Source: Streptomyces sp. NA04227
Lineage (GTDB): Bacteria > Actinomycetota > Actinomycetes > Streptomycetales > Streptomycetaceae
Length of the DNA: 64,000 nt
Direction of reading: 5' to 3'
Assembly: GCF_013364195.1 (NCBI RefSeq)
Contig: NZ_CP054918.1
Coordinates: forward strand, 6,809,001 to 6,873,000
Part shown: piece after piece, positions 6,947 to 13,899 of the stretch
How the letters are laid out: each line of letters opens with the position of its first letter
How positions within the stretch are numbered: the stretch's first letter is position 1
Made by a program: the position numbers and the translations under genes
The notes under the pieces: generated by a model
What the model saw: the letters and a program-made list of their open reading frames with translations, nothing else
What the model was told of the DNA's origin: nothing
The model's database searches: none

Positions 6947-9367
6947 ATGAGCCGCAGTTCCGCAGCCGATGCGCCCGGGCCGCCGGCGCCGCTCAATGGC
7001 GCGGGCGCGGTGCTCGTCGACGCCTGGGGCTGCCTCAGGCAGTGGACCGCCTCGGCCGCCGAACTGCTCGGCTACCCGGACGAGGAACTCGGCGGCATGC
7101 CGGCCCGCCGTCTGCTGCTGCCCCGGCCACCCGGGCACCAGCGGCCGGACGGCGGCCCGCCGGGGCTGCGTCATCTGTGGCTGCGGCACCGCACCGGCGC
7201 CGCGGTGGGGATCTGGGCCCTGCCGATACCGCTCGCGGGCGGGGCGGGCACGCTGGTGCTCGGGCTCACCGAGGAGCAGACGGCCCGGTGGAGCGACGAG
7301 ACCGCGACCGGCCGCGCCCTGCTCACCCAGGACAGTTGGCAGGTCGCCGTGCACGACCTGGATCTGCGGATCCGGCAGTCCAGCCCGCAGGCGCGCCGCG
7401 CGGGCCGGACACCGACGGCGGAGACGGACCCGATCTGCGAGGTCGGCGCCCTGGAGCGGGAGGGCACCGTCGGTGACCTGCTGCACGGGCTCGTGACCAG
7501 CGGCGAGCCGGTGGTGGACGCCGGGGTGCTGCTCGCGAACCGGCCCGGTGAGGCGGACCGCTACTTCTCGCTGACCGCCGTCCGGCTCGACGACCACGCG
7601 GGCCGCGCCACCGGCGTCACCACCTCACTCGTCGACGTCACCGGACGGTTCCGGGCCCGCCGCCGTCTGGACCATCTCCACCGCGCGGCCCGCGGCATGG
7701 GCAGTTCCCTCGACCTGGACCGGACCGCCCAGGACCTGGTCGACGTCCTGGTGCCCGAACTCGCCGACCTGGCAAGCGTGGAGATCGTGGATGCCGTGGC
7801 CCGTGGCGCCGAGCCGCCCGCCCGCGCGATCGGCACCGACATCCAGGTACGCCGGATCGCCGTGGCCCACGCCTTCGGACCCTGGCCGACCGAACTGCTG
7901 CAGCCGGGCGAGCGCCTGCCACGCCTCGTATCGGGCCCCGCGCTGCGCGAGATGGAGGCGGGCGAAGCGCTGATCACGCGCAGCCGCGCCGAGCATGTCG
8001 AGCTCCTCGGCGGAACCGCGGAGAGCGCGGGCATGATCCCCGCGGACATGCACACCGGGATGGGCGCCGTTCTGCTGGCGCGCGGGCGCCTGCTCGGTTA
8101 CGTCCAGGTGCAGCGCACCCGTACCCCGCTCGGCTTCGAGGAGGAGGACGCCCGGCTCTTCCTCGACATCGTCGCGCGGGCCGCCCTGAGCATGGACACC
8201 GCCCGCCGCTACACCCGTGAACACAACCTCGCCGTGCTGCTCCAGCAGAGCCTGCTGCCGCCCGTCACCTCCAGCACACCCGCCGCCGACACCGCGGGCA
8301 GCTACCTGCCCGCGGCCGGAACCGCCAGCGTCGGCGGCGACTGGTTCGACGTACTGCCGCTGTCCTCGCTCCGTACCGCCTTCGTGGTGGGCGACGTGAT
8401 CGGGCACGGCCTCGCCGCCACCGCCACCATGGCCCGGGTCCGTACGGCCGTGCAGACACTGTCCGACCTCGACCTGCACCCCGACGAACTGCTCGTCAGA
8501 GTCGACGACTTGATGGCCCGCATCGCGGAGGAGGCCGAGCACTCCGACACCGTCGGCGCCTCCTGCCTCTACGTCGTCTACGACCCGGCCACCGGCCGCT
8601 GCCGGCTGGCGAGCGCCGGACACCCCGCGCCCGCGGCCGTCGCCCCCGACGGAACGGTGCGCCTGCTCGACGTCGAACCAGGGCCGACCCTCGGCGTCGG
8701 CGGTATGCCCTTCGAGGTCACGGAGGCCGAACTCGCCCCGGGCAGCGTGCTCATGATGTACAGCGACGGATTCACCGACTACCTGCACGGACGGCCCGGA
8801 CCCGGCGGCGCCGACCTGCTGAGTCAGCTGGCCGCCGCGGACGGTCACGAGCGGTCCCTGCGGGAGATCGGGGACCGCCTCCTCGCCCCGGTACGCGCGG
8901 CCACCCGCCGCCAGGACGATGTGACCCTGCTGCTCGCGCGCACCCGCCGGATCCGCCAACAGGACACCGCTGCCTGGCAGTTCCCGCCGGAGCCCGTCGC
9001 CGTCGCCGAGGCCCGGGAGGCGGCGCTCGGGCAACTCGACGTCTGGGGACTGAACGCACTCGCGTTCAGCACCGAACTGGTCGTCAGCGAACTGGTCACC
9101 AATGTCGTCCGCCACGCGGAGGGCCCCGTCGGTCTGCGCCTCATCCGCGACCAGGTCCTCGTCTGCGAGGTCACCGACACCAGCAACAGCCAGCCCCGGT
9201 TGCGCCAGGCACGCAGTACGGACGAGGGCGGCCGCGGCCTGTTCCTCGTCGCCCAGCTCACCCACCGGTGGGGCAGCCGCTACGGCGACTCGGGCAAGAC
9301 CATCTGGACCGAGCAGAGCATTCCGGAGGACACCTCGGAAGACGACCCGGAGGGCGGGGCGGGCTGA
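6947..9367 (+). CDS. PAS-GAF-SpoIIE phosphatase with C-terminal HATPase
   Basis: An 806-residue soluble signalling protein. Order: a PAS domain (about 15-110, with LLGYPDEELGGMP), a second PAS-like sensor (about 125-230), a GAF domain (about 235-430, ending TARRYTREHNLAVLLQQSLLP), a SpoIIE/PP2C Ser/Thr phosphatase (about 440-660) with metal-binding GGDWFDVLP, VVGDVIGHGLAA and the late DDVTLLLAR, and a HATPase_c domain (about 680-800; N box TELVVSELVTNVVRHA, G box EGGRGLFLVAQL). Such proteins dephosphorylate an anti-anti-sigma protein while the HATPase part may phosphorylate or bind the same partner. AGGAG 7 bp before the ATG supports the start. There is no transmembrane segment. The ligand is unknown. 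Confidence 0.92.
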   Translation: MSRSSAADAPGPPAPLNGAGAVLVDAWGCLRQWTASAAELLGYPDEELGGMPARRLLLPRPPGHQRPDGGPPGLRHLWLRHRTGAAVGIWALPIPLAGGAGTLVLGLTEEQTARWSDETATGRALLTQDSWQVAVHDLDLRIRQSSPQARRAGRTPTAETDPICEVGALEREGTVGDLLHGLVTSGEPVVDAGVLLANRPGEADRYFSLTAVRLDDHAGRATGVTTSLVDVTGRFRARRRLDHLHRAARGMGSSLDLDRTAQDLVDVLVPELADLASVEIVDAVARGAEPPARAIGTDIQVRRIAVAHAFGPWPTELLQPGERLPRLVSGPALREMEAGEALITRSRAEHVELLGGTAESAGMIPADMHTGMGAVLLARGRLLGYVQVQRTRTPLGFEEEDARLFLDIVARAALSMDTARRYTREHNLAVLLQQSLLPPVTSSTPAADTAGSYLPAAGTASVGGDWFDVLPLSSLRTAFVVGDVIGHGLAATATMARVRTAVQTLSDLDLHPDELLVRVDDLMARIAEEAEHSDTVGASCLYVVYDPATGRCRLASAGHPAPAAVAPDGTVRLLDVEPGPTLGVGGMPFEVTEAELAPGSVLMMYSDGFTDYLHGRPGPGGADLLSQLAAADGHERSLREIGDRLLAPVRAATRRQDDVTLLLARTRRIRQQDTAAWQFPPEPVAVAEAREAALGQLDVWGLNALAFSTELVVSELVTNVVRHAEGPVGLRLIRDQVLVCEVTDTSNSQPRLRQARSTDEGGRGLFLVAQLTHRWGSRYGDSGKTIWTEQSIPEDTSEDDPEGGAG

Positions 9368-9388: not shown

Positions 9389-11359
9389 TCAGCGGCAGAG
9401 CAGCGGGCCGAGCGGCAGGTCGAGCACCGTCGTACAGGGCTTCTCGCCGGACTTGCCGTCGCCCGTGCCGTCACCCTTGTCGGCGTCCTTGTGCTCACCC
9501 TTGCGCTCGCCCTTGCCCTGGTCCGGGTTCGCGGGCCGGTCCGATTCCGTGTCGGTGTTCTCGTCGCGGGGCGGCGCCGAGTCGGCGGGCCTGTCGTCGG
9601 ACGGCTCGGAGGGCTCCGTACGGGACTGGGGACCGCTCCGTCCCTTCTCCCGGTGGGCCCCGTCATCGTCCGTGGCCGCTTCCTCGGCGGCTTCCGGCGA
9701 GGGAGAGGCGGTGGCCGGAGCGGCCTTGCCGTCCTGGGGTGCGGGTTTGGTGTCGTGGGGGTGGGTGGGGCTGGGTGCGGGTGTGGGGGTGGTGGTGCGG
9801 GTGGGGCGGTGTGCGGTGGTCGGCTGTGGTGAGGGGATCAGGGCCCAGGCGATGAGGGCGAGGGCGGCGGCGAGGGCCAGGGTGAGGAAGGCGGCGCGGC
9901 GGCGTCGGCGGGTGAGGCGTGCGGCGAACGCGGCCCGGGTCTTCTCGGGGACGTAGCGGCGGATGAGGAAGCCGAGGAGGGAGCTGAGGAGTTGCCAGCA
10001 GATGAGGAGGACGCCGACGAGGGGGAGCAGGAGCAGGATGATCTGCAGGAGGGCGGAGGCGACGCCGAGGACGGGGTGGGGGTTGTTGAGTGCTTCGTCG
10101 GCGAGGTTGTGGGTGGAGTCCAGGGCTGAGGCTGTCCATTGGGGCAGGCGGGTGAGGACGATGGCGAGTTGGACGGCGAGGGCGGGCAGGACGGTGAGGA
10201 CCCAGACGGTGACGACGATTTGGGGCCAGCGTTTGAGGGCGTCGAGGCGGGCGTCGGCGGGTTTGCGCAGGACGGCGTGTTTGAGGATGGGGCCGATGTA
10301 TTTGAAGAGGTCGGGGATGCCGACGAGGTCGGAGACGATGTAGTAGCCGTCGAAGCGGAGGGTGGGCAGGAGTTGTTGGGCCATCTCGAGGTTGGTGAAG
10401 AGGATGGCGGCGAGGATGACGGGGTTGTGGGTGTTGAGGTAGGCGGCGATGAGGGCGAGGACGAAGATCCCGTTGAAGTAGACGCCGCCGAGGTCGGTGC
10501 GTAGGCGTCCGGCGCGGCCCAGGCGGTAGGAGTTGGTGACGTCGGTGTAGAAGGCGGGCCAGACGAGGTAGATGCCGCAGCCCATGACGCCGGGTTTGAC
10601 TTTGCCGTAGCGGCAGGCGGCGGCGTGGCCGCATTCGTGGAAGGCGGAGGAGGTCAGGGTCAGGGTGACCACGATGAGTACGGAGTTGGGGCTGGCCATC
10701 GAGGTCGCGACCGCGGTGCCGACGTCCTGGGAGAGGAACACCCACACCTCGCCGACCAAGACCGTGGCCACGACCGCCATCAGTACCAGTGGTGTGAACA
10801 GCCAGGCGAACAGGCCCGCGATGAACCACGTCGCCCGCTCGGAGAGCACCGCTTTACGGAACCGCAGGGTCAGGAAACTGTTCGCCTTCGGAATCTCCGG
10901 CGGCGAACCGTCGCTGTACCGCGTGATCCCCAACGGCGCCAACTTCTTGTCCATCAGGAAGACGATGTGGTCGGCGGTGAACTCGCGCCCCGTGGCCCGG
11001 CCGAGCTGAGCGGCCACCTGCGCCATCGCCGTACGCCCGTCGCCCGAGCCCGTCCGCAGGTGCCGCCGTTCCTCGCGCCCGATCAGTTTGGTGACCTGGT
11101 ACAGCAGCGGCGGCAGATGAATGACCTGCCCGTCGAAACGGTGCACCAGATGGGGCGGGACGCGGTACCCGGAACCGGTGAACTCGCCGACCAGTTCGGT
11201 GCCTTCGGTCAGTCCCGGTACAGGAAGGGCGGCGGGCCGCGTGTTCGGGGGACTGGGCGCTCGCGTGGCGATGGCGATCTCCAACGGTAACGGTGGGTCG
11301 GCGCAGACGCGGGCGCGCACACGGCATCGACGCGAACGGGCCCCGGTGAAGAGCCTCAC
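9389..11359 (-). CDS. Membrane M50-type metallopeptidase, PqqD-like N-domain
   Basis: A polytopic membrane protein of up to 656 residues, of the putative peptide zinc metalloprotease type. The zinc motif HECGH (241-245) lies in a hydrophobic helix; the third ligand is probably the Asp in LRFDGYYIVSD, where canonical M50 has NPDG. About 10 hydrophobic segments span 180-510. Before the membrane part, residues about 75-145 (IHLPPLLYQVTKLIG, then VAAQLG and MDKKLAPLGI) resemble a PqqD/RRE winged-helix peptide-binding fold. The C-terminus (about 530-656) is a Pro/Thr then Glu/Asp/Lys-rich tail ending in CTTVLDLPLGPLLCR. It is the last gene after two tandem peptide genes on the same strand, suggesting it matures or exports them. 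The start is uncertain: the first 28 residues are not family-like and have no clean ribosome binding site. Confidence 0.8.
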   Translation of the reverse strand: MRLFTGARSRRCRVRARVCADPPLPLEIAIATRAPSPPNTRPAALPVPGLTEGTELVGEFTGSGYRVPPHLVHRFDGQVIHLPPLLYQVTKLIGREERRHLRTGSGDGRTAMAQVAAQLGRATGREFTADHIVFLMDKKLAPLGITRYSDGSPPEIPKANSFLTLRFRKAVLSERATWFIAGLFAWLFTPLVLMAVVATVLVGEVWVFLSQDVGTAVATSMASPNSVLIVVTLTLTSSAFHECGHAAACRYGKVKPGVMGCGIYLVWPAFYTDVTNSYRLGRAGRLRTDLGGVYFNGIFVLALIAAYLNTHNPVILAAILFTNLEMAQQLLPTLRFDGYYIVSDLVGIPDLFKYIGPILKHAVLRKPADARLDALKRWPQIVVTVWVLTVLPALAVQLAIVLTRLPQWTASALDSTHNLADEALNNPHPVLGVASALLQIILLLLPLVGVLLICWQLLSSLLGFLIRRYVPEKTRAAFAARLTRRRRRAAFLTLALAAALALIAWALIPSPQPTTAHRPTRTTTPTPAPSPTHPHDTKPAPQDGKAAPATASPSPEAAEEAATDDDGAHREKGRSGPQSRTEPSEPSDDRPADSAPPRDENTDTESDRPANPDQGKGERKGEHKDADKGDGTGDGKSGEKPCTTVLDLPLGPLLCR

Positions 11360-11519
11360 GCCTCGGAAGGAAGGGGGCTTCGGGCAAGCGCATGCGATCC
11401 GGCCCCCGGGTCCGTTACGACCCGTGGCCCGAGGCGCTGCTCGGTGCGGGGTCGACGGACGCCGTCAACTACATGCTGTCAGGCCCGCGTTCATCGCCGC
11501 GGGGGCCGGTGAGCAACCG

Positions 11520-11810
11520 TCAGTTGCTGGTTACTGCTGCGGGTACACAGGTGATGGTGCTGCTCGGCGGCTGGCCGAGACCCAGGGCCCCGATGAGACC
11601 GCCGGTGCCCTGAGTGGTGGTCGCCTGGCAGGCGTAGGACACCGTGGTGTTGGTGTCGCCCTGGCCACCTCCTTCCGGCGTCGGCGAGTCGGAGCCGGGC
11701 GTGGCGTGGCCGGGGCCGTCGAAGCCCAGGTCGACAAGTGAGAGAAGAACCCGCGGGGGGAGCAACTCGCAGTCCAGCGACTCGAGTTCTCCGTAGCTCA
11801 CGGCGGTCAT
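11520..11810 (-). CDS. RiPP-like precursor peptide 2
   Basis: A 96-residue peptide, paralogous to the one at 11925-12224. The N-terminal leader contains ELESLDCELLPPRVLLSLV, matching the L-x2-L-x2-ELLPxRxxLS pattern of its paralogue. The linker is Gly/Ser/Pro/Asp-rich and low in complexity. The C-terminal core is strongly conserved: a Cys (YACQA), then GTGGLIGALGLG, then a second Cys (ITCVPAA) 26 residues after the first. The ATG at 11810 has GAGGAA at good spacing; a longer in-frame start at 11867 falls inside a perfect hairpin and is unlikely. The next gene downstream, 160 bp away, is the M50 peptidase. I infer a ribosomally made peptide whose leader is recognised and removed. There is no lanthionine or radical-SAM enzyme nearby, so a disulfide, cyclisation or simple cleavage is more likely than heavy modification. 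Confidence 0.75.
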   Translation of the reverse strand: MTAVSYGELESLDCELLPPRVLLSLVDLGFDGPGHATPGSDSPTPEGGGQGDTNTTVSYACQATTTQGTGGLIGALGLGQPPSSTITCVPAAVTSN

Positions 11811-11845
11811 GTGGAGTTCCTCTGATTCCAGTGGGTCATGAGGTG

Positions 11846-11867
11846 TTGGGACCGAAGTCGGTCCCAA
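11846..11867. terminator. Perfect 10-bp hairpin between the peptide genes
   Basis: TTGGGACCGA (11846-11855) and TCGGTCCCAA (11858-11867) are perfect reverse complements around a 2-nt centre. With the next hairpin it fills most of the 114-bp spacer between the two precursor genes. It could be a protein-binding dyad or a second attenuating stem. Confidence 0.6.
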
Positions 11868-11872
11868 CGGGG

Positions 11873-11910
11873 CCGGGGAAGGCCCGACGTCGCCGTCGTG
11901 CCTTCCCCGG
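11873..11910. terminator. 11-bp GC-rich stem-loop after precursor peptide 1
   Basis: CCGGGGAAGGC (11873-11883) pairs perfectly with GCCTTCCCCGG (11900-11910) over a 16-nt loop. It starts 14 bp past the stop of the upstream peptide gene (minus strand), so it is placed as a partial terminator or 3'-stabilising stem. This would give more of the first peptide mRNA than of the second peptide and the peptidase. Confidence 0.65.
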
Positions 11911-11924
11911 TTTCAAGAGGACCG

Positions 11925-12224
11925 TCAGTGCGTGGCCGTGGCGGCCGGCACGCAGGTGAGGCTGTTGCTCGGGTTGTTCGAGCCGAGGCCCAGGGCGCCG
12001 ATGAGGCCCGGGGTTCCGTGAACCTGCTGAGCCTGGCACGCCGAGGTGGAGATGGCGCCGCCGCCGTCGCCGTGGCCGCCGCCAACGGCAGCAGCGCTGG
12101 AGCTCGAGCCGCCGTCCGCGCCGCCGCCAACGTTGTTGAACGGAATGACGGTGGACAGGACAGCGCGCTCGGGCAGGAGCTCGCCGGTAAGGCCGTCCAG
12201 CTCCTCGAAGGTGATCGCGTTCAT
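11925..12224 (-). CDS. RiPP-like precursor peptide 1
   Basis: A 99-residue peptide beginning MNAITFEELDGLTGELLPERAVLS in two parts: a leader with the ELLPxRxxLS box (about 15-24) and a Gly/Ser/Ala-rich low-complexity linker (about 32-60). The conserved C-terminal core has Cys in TSACQA, GTPGLIGALGLG, and a second Cys in LTCVPAA, 27 residues apart, with a short tail TATH. The core is about 60% identical to that of the downstream paralogue, while the linkers differ freely. That is the pattern expected when leader and core are selected. AGGAAAGGAAAAGC before the ATG is a strong ribosome binding site. It heads a three-gene unit with peptide 2 and the M50 peptidase. I do not know a named family for it; bacteriocin, signal or surface peptide are all possible. 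Confidence 0.78.
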   Translation of the reverse strand: MNAITFEELDGLTGELLPERAVLSTVIPFNNVGGGADGGSSSSAAAVGGGHGDGGGAISTSACQAQQVHGTPGLIGALGLGSNNPSNSLTCVPAATATH

Positions 12225-13266: not shown

Positions 13267-13899
13267 ATGGACGGGCTGAGGACTCTGCCGCTCGCGGTCA
13301 CGATGATGATGGGACCGCAGATCGTCTCGGCGATCATCTTCGTGACCGTGCGCCGAGCGGTCCGGGTCTCCCTGGCCTTCCTGCTCGGCGTCGCCCTGGC
13401 CACCACGGCGGGCCTCGCGGTCATGCGCGGCCTCGCGTCCCTGCTGGGCTCGGCCGTGGACCTCGGCGGCTCCTCGGACGCGGGGTCGGTGGGGCACATC
13501 GTGCAGTACGTGCTTGTCGGCCTCCTGGTCCTGATGGCGATCCGGAACTGGCGCGGACGTGCGACGGCGAAGCCCCCGGCCTGGCTCGGCACGTTGATGA
13601 ACGCCTCGCCCCGGCGGGCGTTCGAGATCGGCCTGATGGTCATCCTGCTGATGCCCTCGGACCTGGTGGTGATGGCGACCGTCGGCGTTCACCTGGAACA
13701 GGCCGACGCGAACTTCGCCGAGGCGCTCCCGCTGATCGGCCTGACCGTCCTCATCGCCGCACTGCCGCTCCTGGCCTACCTGCTCTTCCGGCGCCGCGCG
13801 GAGCACGCCATGCCGAGGATCAGGGATTGGATGTACGGGCACAGCTGGCTGATCAACATCGTGGTCGCGCTCGTCTTCATCGTGCTCATCCTGGCCTGA
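13267..13899 (+). CDS. GAP-family (Sap) membrane protein
   Basis: A 210-residue protein with six predicted membrane helices, similar to the GAP/Sap family (sulfolipid-1-addressing protein type, distantly related to LysE-like exporters). Typical features are the start MDGLRTLPLAVTMMMGPQIVSAI, the internal RRAFEIGLMVILLMPSDLVVMATVGVHL split over two helices, and a basic loop LFRRRAEHAMPRI before the last helix. Members are proposed to move lipids or small metabolites across the membrane; the substrate here is unknown. It overlaps nothing and follows the preceding membrane gene by 15 bp. A strong terminator lies 25 bp downstream. Confidence 0.82.
   Translation: MDGLRTLPLAVTMMMGPQIVSAIIFVTVRRAVRVSLAFLLGVALATTAGLAVMRGLASLLGSAVDLGGSSDAGSVGHIVQYVLVGLLVLMAIRNWRGRATAKPPAWLGTLMNASPRRAFEIGLMVILLMPSDLVVMATVGVHLEQADANFAEALPLIGLTVLIAALPLLAYLLFRRRAEHAMPRIRDWMYGHSWLINIVVALVFIVLILA

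Follow-up and report, generated by a model that had tools for sequence, protein, structure and literature searches.

Paired two-cysteine peptides and a site-2 protease with an RRE-like domain in Streptomyces and other actinobacteria: a probable leader-guided maturation system

A peptide pair and an M50 protease encoded in tandem

The Streptomyces DNA analyzed here, a stretch of 64,000 nucleotides termed the window in the following, carries on its minus strand the genes for two precursor peptides, A and B, followed by the gene for a metalloprotease of the M50 (site-2 protease) type with an N-terminal domain resembling PqqD and the recognition elements (RRE) of ribosomally synthesized and post-translationally modified peptides (RiPPs). 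We consider it probable that these genes constitute a leader-guided maturation system, in which the RRE would recognize the leader for cleavage by the site-2 protease, the C-terminal part being exported unmodified except for a disulfide. Leader and RRE-protease are constant, the core is variable and nothing else is widely recurrent, so that leader recognition, removal and release is the simplest reading. The host genome is of the same genus as the named Streptomyces considered below.

Precursor A (99 aa, 11925..12224, minus strand) consists of the leader MNAITFEELDGLTGELLPERAVLS, a Gly/Ser-rich linker and a core with two cysteines (C63, C91), and precursor B (96 aa, 11520..11810, minus strand) of the leader MTAVSYGELESLDCELLPPRVLLS, a linker and a core with C61 and C88. 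The order of transcription is A, B and M50 gene. A first-pass annotation had described tandem precursors of 99 and 96 residues with a common ELLPxRxxLS box, and the two open reading frames (ORFs) agree with it, the box reading ELLPERAVLS in A and ELLPPRVLLS in B. Its account of two core cysteines 26-27 residues apart around GTxGLIGALGLG and of diverging linkers likewise stands, with 27 residues between the core cysteines in A and 26 in B; the additional cysteine C14 in the leader of B had gone unmentioned. Among 410 ORFs of 35-420 aa in the window only A and B match the leader-box pattern. The sequences GGAAAGGA and AGAGGA were judged plausible as putative ribosome-binding sites of the two small genes. 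A ends in His and B in Asn, and a Pfam search of both (B without its last two residues) returned nothing informative.

The M50 gene (9389..11359, minus strand) encodes at most 656 aa, its start being uncertain (GTG 11359, GTG 11320 or TTG 11284). As had been proposed, the product is a polytopic metallopeptidase encoded downstream of the peptides on the same strand, and its zinc motif HECGH occupies residues 241-245 (10625..10639, minus strand) with His, Glu and His invariant in 49/49 aligned homologues. Equally invariant (49/49) is the Asp of RFDGYY, residue 337 (10349..10351, minus strand; FDGYY at residues 336-340), which by analogy with the M50 family is probably the third zinc ligand. The combination that marks site-2 proteases, HExxH and a distal Asp in the membrane domain, is thus present. 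An AlphaFold2 model with a mean pLDDT of 89.6 unites RRE and site-2 protease folds in one protein and, together with structural alignments, bears out the earlier suggestion that the pre-membrane part is PqqD/RRE-like (residues 45-151; 10907..11227, minus strand). The last hydrophobic segment is followed by a low-complexity C-terminal tail rich in Pro, Thr, Ser and charged residues (residues ~510-656; 9389..9832, minus strand), which presumably lies outside the cell.

The best named family-profile match of the M50 protein is the daptide intramembrane metalloprotease with 79.9 bits. In Foldseek searches with both models only SkfB (E 3.3) and SpoIVFB (8vjl, with pro-sigmaK; E 1.4) looked relevant, and neither phmmer of the M50 protein against PDB nor a PDB profile search with the N-domain gave anything useful. 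A function in anti-phage defence was rejected, the sole padloc match (PD-T4-6, E 8e-4) covering M50 residues 481-622 and thus mostly the low-complexity tail; a phage origin was rejected as well, as there was no PHROGs match.

Peptides and protease recur together in at least five genera

Starting from peptide A, a search of 199 genomes of the same genus gave matches in nine, seven of which were kept; those in G114 and G130 were dropped (E >5e-4, no M50 gene in L030/L031). The peptide alignment found matches in 7/147 genomes of an order-wide sample. In the window and the eight loci L022-L029 the M50 gene follows the peptides in 8/9 cases, L024 containing A alone, and an M50 gene is situated within 1.5 kb of the peptide in 26/27 loci, which overlap where the peptides are tandem.

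The reverse search, in which named genomes were queried with the M50 alignment, gave 358 confirmed loci, the best 80 of which were used. They stem from Streptomyces, Actinomadura, Amycolatopsis, Saccharopolyspora, Actinomycetospora, a Nocardiopsaceae metagenome-assembled genome (MAG), three Acidimicrobiia MAGs and others. ORFs of 35-420 aa matching the leader-box pattern are present in 78 of these 80 loci as compared to two when the loci are reversed, which argues against chance. Both misses (L148, L156) are contigs that begin at the M50 gene. Once these and the three Acidimicrobiia loci are set aside, 75 assessable class-1 loci remain, and a profile built from these same loci finds peptides in all of them, 157 in total. 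They are co-directional with and upstream of the M50 gene in 74/75 loci, with a median of 110 bases from the peptide stop to the first conserved M50 residue. Both A and B are found in 69/75 loci with the profile and in 62/75 with the box pattern alone, which misses some B leaders. An earlier, stricter count with peptides upstream of 69/76 M50 frames is superseded: in five of its seven misses the M50 frame had been over-extended and two peptides do exist, and the peptides of L153 reside in another arrangement and those of L162 on the other strand. The named and same-genus sets are not independent, because L085/L027, L131/L026, L157/L025 and L125/L029 are the same contigs. The co-occurrence that the first-pass annotation had singled out for checking therefore holds in both directions and in at least five genera. 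That A and B are random ORFs was rejected in view of the recurrence of the box with M50 and the substitution rates given below.

The host genome contains a second copy (L022, at G000:C1:2186887) made up of one A gene and M50. Between it and the window, the membrane and catalytic part of M50 (window 9822-10871) is 98-100% identical, the RRE part 75-86% and peptide A 78-86%, a pattern of identities that looks like gene conversion sparing the recognition parts. The linear plasmid NZ_CP102333.1 of S. changanensis (L082) also carries the system, with box-matching peptides and M50 annotated as hypothetical proteins, and G129 has copies near both chromosome ends. In L025 a third precursor (9642-9902) has a linker rich in His and Gly, and the segment between its cysteines is shortened and lacks GLxGALGLG.

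A constant leader, a cysteine pair and two co-inherited peptide types

The leader consensus consists of E-L, a few residues and G/A-E-x-L-P-x-R-x-x-L/M-S/G. When 190 rows are anchored at the Pro of LPxR, position -10 holds E or D in 176 rows and position -9 holds L in 183, both positions lying outside the pattern by which the rows had been selected. Exactly two cysteines are present in the last 60 residues of 155/157 class-1 peptides. One further peptide has three and one, the first peptide of L155, none; here both cysteines have been lost together and the neighbouring peptide keeps both. Among 152 two-cysteine rows, one of them a chance ORF, the distance between the cysteines is 24-28 in 146, and the last cysteine precedes the C-terminus by 7-10 residues in 149. 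This near-fixed spacing fits a disulfide. None of 152 class-1 precursors reaches 1.6 on the Kyte-Doolittle scale (19-residue window), and of 151 cores 65 are neutral, 69 negative and 17 positive.

Types A and B, distinguished by the residues that precede the first cysteine, change only three times on a tree of 155 rows as compared to 49 times with shuffled labels, the tree resting on few columns and leaving 67/150 inner branches open. This points at two old lineages, paralogues kept together across genera, with an operon order that varies between loci. The ratio of nonsynonymous to synonymous substitution rates (dN/dS), pooled over 24 locus pairs, amounts to 0.34 for the A leader, 0.78 for the A core, 0.44 for the B leader, 0.47 for the B core and 0.47 for M50; dN of A is 0.250 in the core versus 0.068 in the leader. 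Twenty-eight single pairs picked by leader similarity range from 0 to 1.53 with a median of 0.48. Pooled values below 1 indicate that both small genes evolve in the manner of translated sequence; a lack of translation was among the findings that would have refuted the first-pass annotation. Two chance rows, L129_1 and L140_1, were removed from dN/dS, hydropathy and charge counts; the tree lacks only L129_1, and the anchored leader rows retain both.

Related proteases reside next to other cores

The M50 search matched 35/150 genomes of the same genus at E 0.001. Fifteen loci make up a second class with M50 proteins 40-44% identical, and ORFs in all 15 have the leader box in the form ELxxESAELLPGREALG. 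Their cores are rich in Asn, Ser, Ala and Gln, with no cysteine in 21/28 and a single one in 7/28. At E 1e-30 or better, M50 relatives occur in 58 genomes and 22/137 genera (394 genomes of the class). Twenty of these wider loci were read, and 19 were assessed after exclusion of L172 with its 161 bases upstream. Three of the 19 have short peptides like those of the Acidimicrobiia (strict pattern) and six have ELLPxR peptides, found by a looser pattern that was adopted after the strict one had failed and that lacks a chance control. In the remaining ten a protein of 224-387 aa is encoded whose leader is exemplified by LTDEELAAETGTALPDKEVVSILDLN and which contains two repeats, recognized by eye and likewise without chance control. 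An hhalign comparison of the 71-aa with the Acidimicrobiia cores aligned 27 columns with a probability of 69, a weak link.

In L174, L176-L183 and L190, a repeat like AAPIDAAVAANVxSxxSxAxxxAQQDxxIxQ occurs in two copies behind an ALPDKEVVS-type leader upstream of the related M50 gene. In L184-L189 the related M50 gene is accompanied by peptides whose leaders are of the AELLPERLTLA type and whose cores are again unrelated; NSPxSNN or NSPWSN occurs in several of these cores.

As similar RRE-protease modules serve other cores elsewhere in the phylum, their job appears to be recognition, cleavage and release rather than chemical modification. It is even conceivable, although we regard this extension as rather unlikely, that the RRE-site-2 protease provides a general leader-guided route for processing and export of unmodified proteins in Actinomycetota. 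A single type of tag would then be combined with several cores that have no relationship or a distant one to each other, paired disulfide peptides at one end of the range and repeat proteins of up to 387 residues at the other, and tag and protease would make up a secretion pathway independent of Sec signals and of ABC transporters.

Proposed mechanism

In the maturation system that we favor for the A/B pair, both peptides would be synthesized in the cytosol, each with an acidic leader; this leader is no transmembrane helix, nor does it resemble a Sec signal. The N-terminal RRE of M50 would bind the leader box. Cleavage by the site-2 protease domain would then take place at the membrane, probably within the leader or directly behind it, at the transition from conserved box to variable linker. 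The remaining C-terminal portion may exit the cell via the M50 protein itself or via an unlinked exporter, and outside the two cysteines would pair into one disulfide. A and B, which are co-inherited, may act together in an extracellular role and activity. That M50 serves both as leader recognizer and as protease or exporter had been suggested by the first-pass annotation; with the corrections made here, this interpretation is supported by the modeled RRE and site-2 protease folds and by the gene association.

If this holds true, a large number of peptides in actinobacteria would be matured by a compact module of leader box and a single membrane protein, RRE recognition would be used for plain cleavage and release, and tools based on modifying enzymes would tend to miss such peptides. 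The leader might then serve as a short portable secretion tag in Streptomyces.

Neighbouring genes and alternative explanations

Two surveys of the gene neighbourhood bear on the possible role. In a ~10 kb environment of nine loci, all gene clusters present in at least three loci are peptides, M50 or overlapping frames, with one exception (three loci). The second survey clustered 998 gene-like frames (at least 80 aa, codon-bias filter) from ~6 kb around the 75 named loci, and among its 14 widest clusters no family besides peptides and M50 reaches a majority of the loci in two or more genera. Neither survey revealed a modifying-enzyme or exporter family recurring across genera. Pfam analysis of 42 neighbours from five loci (12 window, 10 L022, 8 L109, 8 L083, 4 L102) yielded no radical SAM, YcaO, lanthipeptide synthetase, C39 or ABC-transporter domain. 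Clustering and Pfam analysis agree with the earlier statement that lanthipeptide synthetase, radical SAM, YcaO and dedicated ABC exporter are absent. A cluster of ATP-binding proteins, ABC-F-like by eye, is present in 7/75 loci. Of the features by which an RRE-dependent RiPP is recognized, we found, next to an RRE protein, a precursor that has a conserved leader and a C-terminal core and, in the model, the RRE fold of the M50 N-domain; a modifying enzyme in the cluster was not found.

In the window the M50 gene is convergent with a gene for a PAS/SpoIIE/HATPase phosphatase (6947-9367), and a gene for an SfLAP/Sap-family membrane protein (13267-13899), which is not among the 75-locus clusters shown, lies on the other strand upstream of the peptide operon. 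The widest neighbour cluster of the 75 loci comprises 31 loci (26 Actinomadura, 4 Streptomyces, 1 Amycolatopsis), and its tested member is a SpoIIE phosphatase; a kinase follows with 22 loci, 21 of them from Actinomadura. A profile built from five of the SpoIIE genes matches in 32/75 named loci, including 27/35 from Actinomadura, and a SpoIIE gene adjoins both copies in the host genome, where 38 match rows in 7.9 Mb correspond to about one per 0.2 Mb. It is therefore possible, though in our view not likely, that M50 releases pheromone-like or envelope peptides as signals or developmental surface components, perhaps in connection with SpoIIE; the repetitive cores rich in Asn, Ser, Ala and Gln in the sister systems would suit such a function. 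However, SpoIIE is found in just 4/31 named Streptomyces loci, 1/9 class-1 loci outside the named set, 1/15 class-2 loci and 0/20 others, its synteny in Actinomadura may reflect descent, and no receptor gene recurs.

Somewhat less probable still is a two-peptide bacteriocin, with A and B jointly permeabilizing competitors. The co-inheritance of the pair in most loci, its patchy distribution in Streptomyces (7/199 genomes), the faster change of the A core as compared to its leader, the plasmid copy and the copies near both ends of one chromosome are all in line with this idea. On the other hand, immunity-like genes and ABC exporters neither recur among the clusters shown for the 75 loci nor occur in the 42 neighbours, and the cores are mostly neutral or acidic. 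GxxxG is a feature of class IIb two-peptide bacteriocins, and GLIGALGLG does not have this spacing.

We are more doubtful about a cryptic RiPP, in which an unlinked enzyme would modify the core and M50 would be confined to leader removal, the role of DapP in daptides. Daptide leader peptidases are indeed RRE-fused M50 proteins according to an excerpt of PMC10036551, and the daptide peptidase is the best family match of our protein. A luciferase-like monooxygenase is encoded near two of the five scanned loci (window and L109) and a halogenase-like protein near L109, but neither recurs in the 75-locus clustering. The lack of a modifying gene recurring across genera in both surveys and the near-fixed cysteine spacing speak against this possibility, as do the cores without a cysteine pair that adjoin related proteases. 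Finally, the protease might act on another substrate, the peptides being unrelated neighbours or M50 inhibitors; the link between the two is deduced from sequence, but an association in at least five genera and related proteases adjoining different cores with a similar leader render this very improbable.

Comparison with known systems

The closest known proteins are the daptide peptidase DapP and the epipeptide and TMcin proteases. DapP/MpaP (NF041824), as described in excerpts of PMC10036551 and PMC12338566, shares with the system studied here the fusion of an RRE to an intramembrane M50 peptidase, the presence of several precursor genes, the occurrence mainly in Actinomycetota and a leader with an E-L-x-P motif; the known daptide leader residues E-8, L-7, D-6, P-5 and M-4 resemble the E-L-x-P pattern here, a resemblance and not a test. 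The excerpts place modifying enzymes DapB/C/D/M in daptide clusters and, in one, exporters DapT1T2, none of which recurs here. Domains of class-III aminotransferases and iron-dependent alcohol dehydrogenases were absent from the 42 neighbours, a search made without a DapB model. Daptide precursors have an invariant C-terminal Thr in place of the His of A and the Asn of B, and paired two-cysteine cores set our peptides apart. Given these differences and the DapP equivalog cut-off of 300, which the 79.9 bits do not approach, membership in the daptides was rejected.

Epipeptides require a radical SAM epimerase. No such enzyme recurs here, and their protease YydH/LiaK/EpeP (NF058609), an M50 protein as well, is matched with 38.8 bits as compared to a cut-off of 225, on which grounds membership was rejected. 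EpeP is thought to cleave and export (excerpt of PMC10885120), and the system presented here offers a simple test of the question raised thereby, whether site-2 proteases export as well as cut. According to an excerpt of PMC13252029, the TMcin leader is removed by TmcP, an enzyme of the site-2 protease clan, and the product has one disulfide between two conserved cysteines, the feature seen in nearly all of our peptides. The same source describes TmcP as DUF3267, from which our M50 protein differs, loci with ABC exporter, DsbA-like and escort genes, none of which recurs here, and precursors that hold a transmembrane helix. As no such helix is evident in our 152 precursors, membership in the TMcins was rejected.

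SpoIVFB is a site-2 protease that acts on the precursor of a transcription factor. In its structure with pro-sigmaK (8vjl) no RRE was aligned, and the substrate is a sigma factor. The RRE of lasso peptides, B1/TbiB1, is a separate protein that works with a cysteine peptidase (excerpt of PMC13381572) and is not fused to M50.

The present gene pair is not described in passages of PMC12710340, PMC10885120, PMC10036551, PMC12338566, PMC7470986, PMC13381572, PMC7794033 and PMC13252029, and five leader strings did not occur in open-licence PubMed Central papers, among which no description of the larger family was found either. RRE-guided leader removal by a site-2 protease is of a kind already known; what would be new here is its occurrence without a recurring modifying enzyme, its paired disulfide-type cores and its membership of this larger family.

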